Below, piece after piece: positions 914-5,873 of a stretch of 6,855 nucleotides of DNA. The stretch comes from a bacterium. Lineage in GTDB: Bacteria > UBP15 > UBA6099 > DSWB01. Within the stretch, counting starts at the first letter, position 1; each line of letters opens with the position of its first letter. Both the position numbers and the translations under genes were made by a program. The DNA lies in contig JAGUYV010000420.1 in the NCBI GenBank assembly GCA_020061125.1, positions 1-6,855 on the forward strand, written 5' to 3'. The notes beneath the pieces were generated by a model. The model saw only the letters and a program-made list of their open reading frames with translations. It did not search any database and had not been told where the DNA came from.

Positions 914-943
914 TTTACACTGTTGCGCGGCGCGGTCTATACT
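914..943 (+). promoter_or_regulatory. Sigma70-type promoter of the GAF histidine kinase
   Basis: TTTACA (914-919) and TATACT (938-943) are separated by 18 bases, each one mismatch from the consensus hexamer. Transcription should begin near 950, leaving a very short leader. It is divergent from the glycosyltransferase promoter; the two -10 elements are about 55 bases apart. Confidence 0.65.
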
Positions 944-951
944 TGAAATTC

Positions 952-958
952 GAGGGAG
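952..958 (+). promoter_or_regulatory. Ribosome binding site fixing the kinase start at 967
   Basis: GAGGGAG lies 8 bases before ATG 967. An upstream in-frame TTG at 943-945 overlaps the -10 element and precedes the expected transcript start, so it cannot be used from this promoter. Confidence 0.6.
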
Positions 959-966
959 CCGCATCC

Positions 967-3402
967 ATGGACGAACCGGGTAATCGGGATCCGCACGGCG
1001 TTCGGTTCGATCTCATCACCGAGGTCGGGCGCGTGCTGCAGTCCGCGCGTAGCGTGGAGCAGATTCTGCACGATATCGTGGACCTTGTGGCCGGGCTGAT
1101 GAAGGTGGACGGCAGTTCCATCTTCCTGTACGAGGACGGAGCGCTAAAGCTCAAGGTGTACAAGGGCGTGGAAGAAGAGAGCCTTGAGCCGGTGAGCGTG
1201 GAACTCGGGGAAGGCGCGGTGGGCGAAGCCGCGCTGCGCGGCCGTCCCGTGGCTGTTCTGCTCGACGAAAGCGCGCCATCCTTCATTTCACAATATTGTC
1301 CGGAGCCGGTGCACAGCCTGTTGTGCGTGCCCATGCTGGAAGACGACAGCCTGATCGGCGTGCTGAACCTGCATCACCACGGGGACCGGCAGTACTCGGA
1401 TGTGGAGCAGGGCTTCGCCTCGTTCATCGCCTCGCAGCTTGTGGGCGCGATCCGGAACGCGCAGCTTCAGGAGGAAATACTGCGAGGACTGCGGGACATG
1501 GCTACCCTGCACCGGGTCAGCCAGATCGTCAGTTCCGTGCTGGACGAGGACATGCTGCTGGACCTCATCGCGCAAACCGCGGCCGAGCATCTTCACGCCA
1601 GGGGCTGCGCCCTGCGCATGCTCGTTCCCATGACCGACCAGCTCGAGCTGCGGAGCATATTCGGGTTCGATCCGCAGATTTCGCCTCCCAAATACATCAG
1701 GGTCGGGTATGGCATAGCGGGCAAGGTGGCCCTGGAAATGCGCCCCTTCGTGAGCAACGATGTGGAGCATGATGAGACCATCGCCGGCGAAGTCGGCATC
1801 CCGCTCAAGTCCTCGATATGCGTGCCCATGCTGGTCAAGGGCCGGCTCATCGGCACCATCGGCGTGTTCGACCGCACCGACCCGGACACCGGACGGATCG
1901 TTCCGTTCGACGAAAGCGATGTGGGCCTGGTGGCGTCCATCGGCGCCCAGGCCGCCATGGCCATTGAAAACGCGAACTTGTTCGACGAGGCCCGGCGCCT
2001 GTCCGCGGATAAAGAATTGCGCATCAAGGAGTTGTCCCTTCTCCTCGAAATAACCAACATGATGCGCAGCACCCTGGACCTCGAGGAAATCCTGTACATC
2101 ATTCTCACGAGCGTGACCATGGGCCAGGGCCTCGGCTTCAACCGCGCATGCCTGTTTCTGGTGGACGAGAACAAGGCGTTTTTGCGGGGCGCCATGGCCG
2201 TAGGCCCGGCCACGGCCGAGGAAGCCCAGCAAAGCTGGAACGCCATTGACCCCGAAGGCAAGACCCTGGCCGAGCTTGTGACCGAGTACGGTCGCTACAA
2301 CATGTCCGCGGGTTTCAACACGGACAAACGCATCAGGGAAACGCGCATTCCTCTGGACCCGGAGAAGGGCGTTGTGGCGCGCACCGCCCTGGAGCGCAGA
2401 TCCTTCCACGCCGTGCATTATTCCTCGCCCGAAGGCAGCGAGGAAACCGTGCTCCATGAACTCAATTTCACGATCTTCGCGTCCATTCCCATCGTGGCCA
2501 AGGACACGGTAATCGGCGTGATCGTGGTGGACAACTTTGTGACCGGCGAACCCATCACCGACGACCTCATGAACTTTCTGCAACTGTTCGCAAACCAGGC
2601 CGCCAGCGCCATCGAGATGGCGCGCGTGTACCAGAATCTCGAGGAGACCAACAAGCGGCTCATAGATGCGCGGGATTTGCTCGTGCGCACCAAGACCCTG
2701 GCCACGCTGGGCGAGTTCTCCGCGGGCGTGGCCCACGAATTGCGCAACCCTCTGGTGTCCATCGGCGGGTTCGCGCGACGCCTCATGCGCATGCTGGATG
2801 CGGACGCCAAAGAAGCCAAGTACGCGCGCATCATCACCACGGAAGTGGAAAACCTCGAGCGCATCCTGTCGCAGATTCTGGAATTTGTGAGCGGCGGCCG
2901 TCCGGTGCGCAAGCAGGTGGATGTGTTTCTGCTTCTGGAGCAGGTCTTCGAGCTGTTTCGCGAGCAGATGCACCGCGCGGGCGTGGTCCTGTCCACGGAT
3001 TTCGAGGAAGAGGCCCGCATGCTCTGGGCCGACGAAGTGCAGCTCCGGCAGCTTTTCATCAACCTGGTCAAGAACGCCATCGAGGCCATGGACGAAACCG
3101 GCGGCGCGCTCACGGTCAAGGCCATCCGCATGCGGGACGAAACCGGCGGCGTGGGTCTCGAGATCCGGGACACCGGCTGCGGCATTGATCAGGAGGATTT
3201 GGAGCGCATCTTCGATCCGTTTTTCTCGCGCAAGGCCGCGGGCACGGGCCTGGGCCTGTCCATGTGCTCGCGCATCGTGGAATCCAACCACGGCGGCCGC
3301 ATTTTTATCGAGAGCGCCCGGGGCGAGGGAACCGCGGTTCTGGTGTGGCTGCCCGAGGAAACCGTGGTCAAGCCGGACGCCGCGCCCCCGGACCCGATCT
3401 GA
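967..3402 (+). CDS. Triple-GAF sensor histidine kinase
   Basis: An 811-residue soluble histidine kinase with no membrane segment or signal peptide, so it should sense a cytoplasmic signal. Three GAF-type domains lie at about residues 30-160, 194-337 and 370-552. The third is enlarged and contains a GLGFNRACLFLVDE segment. Coiled-coil linkers follow the second and third domains. The transmitter has an H-box AHELRNPL with phosphoacceptor His590, an N-box FINLVKNAIEAM with Asn703, a G1 box DTGCGI (735-740), an F-box IFDPFF (748-753) and a G2 box GTGLGL (759-764), so it looks catalytically complete. There is no attached receiver. The likely partner is the single-domain regulator 72 bases downstream, though that gene has its own promoter. 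What the GAF domains bind cannot be read from the sequence. The family assignment is certain; the signal and output are not. Confidence 0.95.
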   Translation: MDEPGNRDPHGVRFDLITEVGRVLQSARSVEQILHDIVDLVAGLMKVDGSSIFLYEDGALKLKVYKGVEEESLEPVSVELGEGAVGEAALRGRPVAVLLDESAPSFISQYCPEPVHSLLCVPMLEDDSLIGVLNLHHHGDRQYSDVEQGFASFIASQLVGAIRNAQLQEEILRGLRDMATLHRVSQIVSSVLDEDMLLDLIAQTAAEHLHARGCALRMLVPMTDQLELRSIFGFDPQISPPKYIRVGYGIAGKVALEMRPFVSNDVEHDETIAGEVGIPLKSSICVPMLVKGRLIGTIGVFDRTDPDTGRIVPFDESDVGLVASIGAQAAMAIENANLFDEARRLSADKELRIKELSLLLEITNMMRSTLDLEEILYIILTSVTMGQGLGFNRACLFLVDENKAFLRGAMAVGPATAEEAQQSWNAIDPEGKTLAELVTEYGRYNMSAGFNTDKRIRETRIPLDPEKGVVARTALERRSFHAVHYSSPEGSEETVLHELNFTIFASIPIVAKDTVIGVIVVDNFVTGEPITDDLMNFLQLFANQAASAIEMARVYQNLEETNKRLIDARDLLVRTKTLATLGEFSAGVAHELRNPLVSIGGFARRLMRMLDADAKEAKYARIITTEVENLERILSQILEFVSGGRPVRKQVDVFLLLEQVFELFREQMHRAGVVLSTDFEEEARMLWADEVQLRQLFINLVKNAIEAMDETGGALTVKAIRMRDETGGVGLEIRDTGCGIDQEDLERIFDPFFSRKAAGTGLGLSMCSRIVESNHGGRIFIESARGEGTAVLVWLPEETVVKPDAAPPDPI

Positions 3403-3416
3403 CCCGGCGCCGTGTT

Positions 3417-3445
3417 TTTACTTTTCCCGCCGCGGTGTGTATAAT
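3417..3445 (+). promoter_or_regulatory. Near-consensus promoter of the response regulator
   Basis: TTTACT (3417-3422), a 17-base spacer and a perfect TATAAT (3440-3445). It lies wholly in the 72-base gap after the kinase stop codon, so the regulator can be expressed independently. The expected transcript start is near 3452. The T-run at 3415-3419 belongs to the -35 region, and no convincing terminator hairpin precedes it. Confidence 0.7.
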
Positions 3446-3474
3446 AGATTCAAGTCGCACCGCGGGAGACGGCG

Positions 3475-3831
3475 ATGAAAAAGATCCTCATCATTGACGA
3501 TGACCAGAGCATCCGGGAATTTTTCAAGGACGAACTTGAAGAAGACGGGTATGCGGTGGCGCTTGCGGCCACGGGGCAGGAAGGCCTGGAGCAACTCGAC
3601 GCGGATCCCGCCGGGTTCCACCTCGTGATGCTCGACATCAAGATGCCGGGCATGGGCGGGCTGGAAGTCTTGAGCCGCATCAAGGAGCTGCGCCGCGATC
3701 TCCCCGTGATTCTGGTGAGCGCATACGACACCTACAAGATGGACTTTTCATCCTGGGCCGCGGAAGATTACATCATCAAGAGTTCCGACATCCGCGAACT
3801 CAAGGAAAAGATCCGCCGGTATATTTCCTGA
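3475..3831 (+). CDS. Single-domain response regulator (CheY-like receiver)
   Basis: A 118-residue stand-alone receiver domain with no output domain. The acidic Mg-binding cluster is Asp8-Asp9-Asp10, the phosphoacceptor is Asp54 in VMLDIKMPGMGG, the switch Ser is Ser82 in VSAYD, and the conserved Lys is Lys102. The last is followed by Ser-Ser instead of the usual Pro. The segment YKMDFSSW...DYIIKSS resembles a receiver subgroup I recall from deltaproteobacteria and similar genomes. A GGGAG ribosome site (3464-3468) sits 6 bases before the ATG. By position it should accept phosphate from the upstream GAF kinase and act through protein contact or as a relay intermediate; its target is not visible here. 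The gene ends 19 bases from the convergent cNMP-binding gene. Confidence 0.93.
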   Translation: MKKILIIDDDQSIREFFKDELEEDGYAVALAATGQEGLEQLDADPAGFHLVMLDIKMPGMGGLEVLSRIKELRRDLPVILVSAYDTYKMDFSSWAAEDYIIKSSDIRELKEKIRRYIS

Positions 3832-4451: not shown

Positions 4452-4481
4452 TTGAGCGCGCGCGCGCGGTTCTGTTATAAT
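4452..4481 (+). promoter_or_regulatory. Extended -10 promoter of the flagellin/VWA gene
   Basis: TTGAGC (4452-4457), an 18-base spacer and a perfect TATAAT (4476-4481) preceded by TGT, an extended -10 element. The spacer begins in an alternating GC tract (4456-4468). The AT-rich palindrome AATTAATT (4446-4453) overlaps the start of the -35 and could be an UP element or operator. Expected transcript start is near 4488. Confidence 0.7.
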
Positions 4482-4553: not shown

Positions 4554-5873
4554 ATGGAAGTGGACCGCAATCTGGTAAAAATTCCCAGGGTCATGCTGGA
4601 CCCGGCGCGCATCGAGAAACTGTTGAGCCGCCGCCGCGTGGCGCGCGCGGGCAGGGCGCTTCTACCCGAGCCGGCCGCACGGCCCGAAACCCTGCCCATC
4701 TCCTGGCAGTTGAGCCGCGAGCACCTCGAGGCGCTTACCGGGGAAATAGACGCCGCAGAACCCGTGCTGCACAATGTGTACGAGGACCGCGACATTTTCG
4801 AGCTTCGCCGCCGGGGTCTCCAGCAGATCATGGATCTGCTCCAGCGCATGCGCGGATTCGTGGACAGGTATCCTTTCAGCGACAAAGAAAAGGATGTGGT
4901 GCGCGCGGAGATTGACGCGCTGTCCAGGAACATCGAGCAGGTGGCGGCGCAGACGCGGTTTTTCAATATGCCGCTGCTCGCGCCCGCGCTCAAGGTGGCC
5001 CCGCTTCAGCCAGAGTCCGCGCGCTCCGCGGGCAACGCTACGGACATCGTGTTCGTGGTCAGCCGCGCAAAGTCCCTGCGCAAGGATGTCCGCCTCCTGG
5101 CGGACCACGCACGGCACTTCGCCACCGACCTGGCCAACATGGGCCTGAACGCGCGCCTGGGCCTGCAGACCTTCGGACGCACCAGCCAGCCCGCAGGGCC
5201 GTTCCGCATTTCCGCCGAGGATTTCATCGCCGATCTGAATTCGGTCTCGCCGGGCAAAGAGCCGCAGAACGCCCTTGAAGCCCTGCGAAACGCCGTAGAG
5301 GATTTTTCGTTCCGCGAGCCGTGCGGCAAGTTCGTGATCCTGCTTGCGGACGCGGACGCCAACGATGACTTCGCCGACGCCAGGGAGCGGACTATCGAGG
5401 CGCTCAAGAGCGCGCGCGCCACGCTTCATGTGTTCAGCGTGAACGACCCGTTCACGGGCGCGCCCTTCGCGGCTTACGAAGAAATTGCTCACGCCACCGG
5501 CGGGCAGTACTTCAACATCGCCGTCACCGACTACCGAAGCGCCCTGGCGTCCCTGTCCGCGGCCATCTGCGCGCAGGCCGTGGAATCCGGCGCGCCGGTC
5601 GTGTACTCGGAAAACCGCGCGCTGCCCATCGGACCCGAAGCCTCGGAAACCATTTCCGTGCGCTTCCCGGATTTCCGGCCCGGCGCGCTGGGCGTGGACT
5701 CTCTCAAGCTCGAATCCCGGCAGGATTTCATGGAGGCGTGCGCGGTTGTGGACAACGCCCTGCGCACGCTGTCCGAGGACGCGGGCGAGAAGCGCCTGCT
5801 GTCCGAATTCCTCGACCGCATTCTGTCCCATTTCGACACGGTGCGGCTCTACAGGCTCGATTTCAAGATTTGA
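4554..5873 (+). CDS. Flagellin-like protein with an inserted VWA-like domain
   Basis: A 439-residue protein with no signal peptide or membrane segment. Residues about 20-142 look like the flagellin N-terminal region: LPISWQL (47-53) recalls LAISEKL, LLQRMR (95-100) matches the flagellin ILQRMR helix, and EIDAL followed by TRFFNMPLL (134-142) matches EIDQL and TEFNGKKLL. Residues about 163-338 form a von Willebrand A-like fold: DIVFVV first strand, FVILLADADANDD in the metal-site strand, and HVFSV and TGGQYF late motifs. Residues about 350-425 match the flagellin C-terminal core: LPIGPEASETISV, then ALGVDSLKLESR, then VVDNALRTLS. So the VWA-like part occupies the place of the flagellin variable domain. 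Both termini are shorter than in flagellin and the C-terminal D0 helix is absent. The VWA metal site is partly lost. No flagellar genes are nearby. The gene is a single-gene unit with its own promoter and a terminator-like hairpin. Function unknown; binding or scaffolding is inference. Confidence 0.8.
   Translation: MEVDRNLVKIPRVMLDPARIEKLLSRRRVARAGRALLPEPAARPETLPISWQLSREHLEALTGEIDAAEPVLHNVYEDRDIFELRRRGLQQIMDLLQRMRGFVDRYPFSDKEKDVVRAEIDALSRNIEQVAAQTRFFNMPLLAPALKVAPLQPESARSAGNATDIVFVVSRAKSLRKDVRLLADHARHFATDLANMGLNARLGLQTFGRTSQPAGPFRISAEDFIADLNSVSPGKEPQNALEALRNAVEDFSFREPCGKFVILLADADANDDFADARERTIEALKSARATLHVFSVNDPFTGAPFAAYEEIAHATGGQYFNIAVTDYRSALASLSAAICAQAVESGAPVVYSENRALPIGPEASETISVRFPDFRPGALGVDSLKLESRQDFMEACAVVDNALRTLSEDAGEKRLLSEFLDRILSHFDTVRLYRLDFKI

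Follow-up and report, generated by a model that had tools for sequence, protein, structure and literature searches.

A flagellin-related VWA protein without recognisable D0 is present in all seven sampled genomes of an order of UBP15 bacteria

The window, by which we mean the whole 6,855-nucleotide stretch of DNA analysed, comes from a 4.1 Mb draft genome of 79% completeness and carries a PMT_2-like glycosyltransferase fragment (minus strand), a histidine kinase bearing three GAF domains, then a response regulator and, on the minus strand, a cNMP-binding protein, as well as a gene resembling dCTP deaminase and the beginning of an M17 aminopeptidase gene. The triple-GAF kinase and the single-domain response regulator that follows it occupy positions 943–3831, with the divergent cNMP-binding protein downstream. 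Positions 4554–5873 of the plus strand hold the gene studied here, a confirmed open reading frame of 439 amino acids plus stop, which is a real gene, since its orthologs share the start methionine and the end position.

A sigma-70-like promoter candidate, TTGAGC-N18-TATAAT, lies at 4452–4481 (plus strand; pattern match only), while a pattern search of the 250 bases upstream of the gene found no sigma-28-like match and a similar search of the ortholog loci found no common flagellar promoter. At three ortholog loci, a −10-like TAGAAT or TAAAAT stands a few bases 5′ of the start codon (L067 before 4667, L069 before 7938, L072 before 2656), as in leaderless transcripts; unlike these, the window gene has a leader with a GGGAG stretch resembling a ribosome-binding site. 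The neighbours of the gene are neither flagellar nor conserved at the ortholog loci, so gene context offers no clue to function.

Orthologs with 38–40% identity to the window protein occur in six other genomes of the order, although the copy in genome G005 stops at a contig end. A scan of contigs with the single window protein found no ortholog, whereas a scan with the alignment found all six. Across a sample of 386 genomes (about one per family outside the order), the profile matched over its full length in all seven genomes of the order (in G005, as far as the contig runs) and in none of the 379 others, where its matches were VWA domains of other proteins, flagellin D1 alone or the VWA-bearing flagellin L044. 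Six full-length orthologs from three families are free of stop codons and have equal ends, with one more cut by the contig end. Within genus g3, dN/dS is 0.09–0.12 (about 0.11), and the gene is under purifying selection.

Searched alone against Pfam, the window protein reached 12.3 bits (E 0.18) with Flagellin_N, for which the cut-off is 26.6, and gave no match to Flagellin_C or VWA; the NCBIfam flagellinolysin model matched residues 353–408, in the C-terminal flank, weakly (E 1.3e-4). When a profile of the seven orthologs was compared with all PDB sequences, flagellins came top (best E 1.4e-10), the best match spanning residues 61–144 and 355–430 and each of the best three matching both D1 flanks. 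Against eight VWA-bearing flagellins, profile–profile comparison gave a probability of 99.8% over 347 columns, and VWA-free flagellins in other genomes were matched by the ortholog profile at about 1e-9, over D1 only. The N flank scored 51.8 against the N-terminal part of the VWA-bearing flagellins (column shuffles 12.5 ± 1.8, maximum 18.4) and the C flank 54.9 against their C-terminal part (shuffles 11.1 ± 2.2, maximum 17.6); swapped and reversed controls scored at background, each flank fitting its own half of flagellin only.

These comparisons, together with the structure model, place the N-terminal part of D1 at residues 50–147 (4701–4994, plus strand), with helices at 55–73, 79–105 and 110–134, and the D1 hairpin (LPIGPEASETISV..ALGVDS) and C-terminal D1 helix (389–433 in the model) at residues 346–430 (5589–5843, plus strand). 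The non-helical hairpin pattern IGPxxxxxxxxxFPDxxxxxLGL also aligns with flagellin. In three divergent orthologs, 30% of columns are identical in D1-N, 29% in D1-C and 23% in the VWA domain, and conservation of D1 is at least equal to that of VWA. The AlphaFold2 model, built from seven sequences, has a mean pLDDT of 66.8, with blocks of the flank helices averaging about 46 to 77; the Foldseek and VIA-align fold searches concerned mainly the VWA part (148–348). We regard the window protein as almost certainly a flagellin-homologous D1 joined to a VWA domain, and by sequence comparison D1 is the only part it shares with flagellin. The proposal that the flanks are flagellin D1 in the correct order is borne out by the flank scores and the PDB search.

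The VWA domain occupies residues 161–345 (5034–5588, plus strand), a placement drawn from ortholog Pfam matches, profile comparison, the model and VIA-align. Orthologs match PF00092 at 3e-6 to 3e-7, pLDDT is near 85 in this part of the model, and VIA-align over residues 161–341 finds similarity to integrin I domains at Z about 18 (1ck4_B: Z 18.2, rmsd 2.9, 173 aligned). The domain is inserted at the D1/D2 junction, between D1-N and D1-C, as in VWA-bearing flagellins; the earlier suggestion that a VWA fold occupies the variable-domain position agrees with the ortholog matches and the structural comparison. At the position of the MIDAS motif DxSxS, the alignment of orthologs and VWA-flagellins puts SRAKS (residues 170–174; 5061–5075, plus strand), so that the window protein has S170, A172 and S174, the Asp and first S/T being replaced. 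The equivalents are DRNRW in G001, DRREN in G005 and, in the g3 genomes, SRSAS, except for G002 with SRSTS. A complete DxSxS was found in no ortholog, while Dx(T/S)xS is kept in all eight aligned VWA-flagellins. The four g3 orthologs (G002–G004 and G006) keep both Ser, and since Asp alone is replaced they may, on sequence grounds, still bind metal. A VWA-domain tree gave no resolved sister placement of the ortholog VWA to a flagellin VWA, and a single clade of ortholog and flagellin VWAs without L055 was not rejected (p-AU 0.33).

The initial annotation had taken a VWA domain in this part of flagellin to be undescribed, which is not the case: vWFA was ranked eighth by frequency in 2017 among the domains of flagellin hypervariable regions, with 21 sequences (Eckhard et al., 2017, PMC5595980, Table 1), and the genome carrying the window encodes four further VWA-bearing flagellins in which Flagellin_N and Flagellin_C are both complete (L055, L056, L060 and L062). 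Such flagellins, with both Pfam domains and Dx(T/S)xS, were also seen in relatives (L041, L043 and L088) and in genome G035 (L044), with several per genome in the order. They have the D1 flanks, the insertion site and the VWA fold in common with the window family; they differ in carrying both D0 segments and Dx(T/S)xS, whereas in the window family D0 is not recognisable and the motif is incomplete.

D0 was sought at both ends. Residues 1–62 scored at shuffle background against the D0 of VWA-flagellins and of short flagellins alike, and the motif LPISWQL is for this reason no evidence of D0. In place of D0-N stands a basic extension (residues 1–49; 4554–4700, plus strand), delimited by the lack of D0 signal, its pI (about 11.5 for residues 1–52), low confidence in the AlphaFold2 model (pLDDT mostly under 50) and poor conservation (three divergent orthologs agree in 9% of columns). 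At the other end, the window protein and its orthologs finish at the boundary of D1 and D0-C: where flagellins run on into D0-C, the ortholog alignment shows a conserved short tail, RLYRLDFKI (residues 431–439; 5844–5870, plus strand), and no D0-C is hidden downstream because the next gene begins 42 bases later. No signal peptide was found on reading the window protein sequence, nor any transmembrane-like stretch (maximum mean KD over 19 residues 1.4 or less). The motifs first read as a D0/D1 core are present and hold for D1, but not for D0, of which nothing follows VVDNALRTLS.

As far as sequence can tell, recognisable D0 is absent from both termini, and the window protein is very probably not a normal filament subunit. 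The core of the flagellar filament is formed by the D0 of flagellin. In Bacillus subtilis flagellin, D0-C is also the main contact of FliS (PMC6070490), so neither normal polymerisation nor use of FliS would be expected here. FliW contacts in the same flagellin lie at residues 11–34, at residues 50–72 and on the C-terminal D1 helix, and the N-terminal 72 residues, D0-N included, suffice for FliW binding (PMC6070490).

In the seven genomes of the order, several of them incomplete, FliW was found in seven, FlhA in five, FliS in four and FlbT in none. Flagellin_N matches number 8 to 21 per genome (G000–G006), FlgL-like genes possibly being among them. At locus L048 (G000, contig C51), FliW has an FlgL-like gene on one side and a flagellin gene on the other. 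The orthologs sit outside flagellar loci, and the window gene is apart from FliW.

The most likely explanation is a repurposed flagellin unable to build a standard filament, for which we infer a function from these comparisons. Judging by shared architecture and insertion site, the ancestor would have been a VWA-bearing flagellin from which D0 was lost. The resulting protein could presumably neither enter the filament core nor bind FliS through D0-C, and would have been retained across the order as a soluble D1–VWA protein for another task; order-wide retention and D0 loss probably reflect a job other than building flagella. The likeliest such task would be binding inside the cell, with D1 contacting the flagellin-handling machinery and VWA acting as a scaffold rather than as a standard metal-dependent adhesin. 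A soluble intracellular binding role is favoured because the D1 surfaces are kept, all seven genomes have FliW and the regulatory flagellin FljJ offers a precedent. Taken whole, the explanation of a VWA-flagellin descendant without D0, kept for another, intracellular binding task, seems to us on balance the probable one. That the task is both intracellular and related to flagellin is a more tentative suggestion, as is the picture of a flagellin permanently out of the filament, in which this order-wide, single-copy, D0-less D1–VWA protein would have a binding or regulatory role in the cytosol. No description of a cytosolic use of the flagellin fold was found in searchable papers. Several points tell against the explanation we favour: D0-N, part of the segment sufficient for FliW binding in B. 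subtilis, appears to be missing here; the disordered N-terminus could be a flagellar export signal; and the neighbours are neither conserved nor flagellar, while the VWA tree gives no sister relation. Of the two uses first imagined for the protein, display of a ligand-binding module on the filament loses weight because D0 is missing and the metal-site motif is incomplete, and reuse of a flagellin-derived protein for another task is the better supported.

Among other explanations, we think it rather unlikely that the protein is a regulatory flagellin in the manner of FljJ, gauging or adjusting the supply of flagellin by binding to a regulator of translation, in this case putatively through FliW–CsrA, FlbT not having been found. 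FljJ, a regulatory flagellin that forms no filament alone and has FlbT as its partner (PMC7591256), is the precedent, and the FliW and FlbT counts and the FliW contacts on D1 (PMC6070490) point the same way; with 8 to 21 Flagellin_N matches per genome, dosage control would matter. Yet regulation by FljJ ends with its export, and FljJ has D0 and joins the filament, which the window protein without D0 does not match; the gene lies apart from FliW, and neither promoter nor context ties it to the flagellar regulon. An exported accessory protein or adhesin is unlikely: its disordered, basic N-terminus would direct it to flagellar type III export, and D1–VWA would be extracellular, free or bound to the filament through D1–D1 contacts. 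The low-confidence N-terminus of the model, FlhA in five of the seven genomes and the two DxSxS Ser kept in four orthologs suit such a protein, as does the fact that VWA domains are frequent ligand binders. It would, however, have no D0 for locking into the filament, its metal-site motif is incomplete in all orthologs, and D0-C, the main FliS contact in B. subtilis (PMC6070490), is missing.

Two further explanations were weighed. A VWA protein whose coiled-coil flanks had come to look like D1 through convergence would account for the weak Pfam matches of the lone window sequence, but is very improbable, given that each flank fits only its own flagellin half, far above shuffled and reversed controls, that the PDB search gives flagellins first and that the non-helical hairpin is aligned as well. 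A flagellin decaying into a pseudogene might show just such unrecognisable D0 segments and an incomplete metal-site motif; the full-length, stop-free orthologs with equal ends in three families, the dN/dS of about 0.11 within the genus and the conservation of the new C-terminal tail make this extremely improbable.

The repurposed flagellin that we favour can be set beside known systems. Flagellinolysin (PMC5595980, PMC7643111) likewise houses a functional domain within the variable region of flagellin and is the family matched weakly by the C flank, but its domain is a metallopeptidase where the window protein has VWA, and the window protein is without D0. FljJ of Caulobacter crescentus (PMC7591256) is similarly a flagellin paralog unable to build a filament alone; it differs in keeping D0, being exported into the filament and working with FlbT, whereas regulation by the window protein is putative. 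Flagellins with VWA in their variable region are known, then, but the D0-less, order-wide form was not found described: the searchable literature (subscription papers and supplements lay outside reach) yielded no D0-less flagellin, and nothing relevant on UBP15 and flagella.

Flagellin paralogs are commonly interpreted as filament subunits. The presence of a D0-less member in each genome sampled from the order suggests that the D1 head can be retained for a task beyond the standard filament core, and the family makes a clean test case because the FliS and FliW contacts on D1 and D0 are already mapped in B. subtilis. With so many Flagellin_N matches per genome, some with VWA or beta-propeller inserts, the order is also a good place to study flagellin diversification.

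A second VWA family, 89% identical in two genomes (L042, 593–2125, plus strand; L127, 862–2493, minus strand), has flagellin-like D1 features and a complete DRSGS; it has no Pfam flagellin match and ends in SYWETIWL in place of D0-C. Beta-propeller-like repeats occur in the variable region of four flagellins of the source genome: L051 (2138–3889, minus strand), L057 (2823–5876, minus strand), L065 (2–2026, plus strand) and L052 (4775–6526, plus strand), the last matching PD40 at E 6.4e-55.
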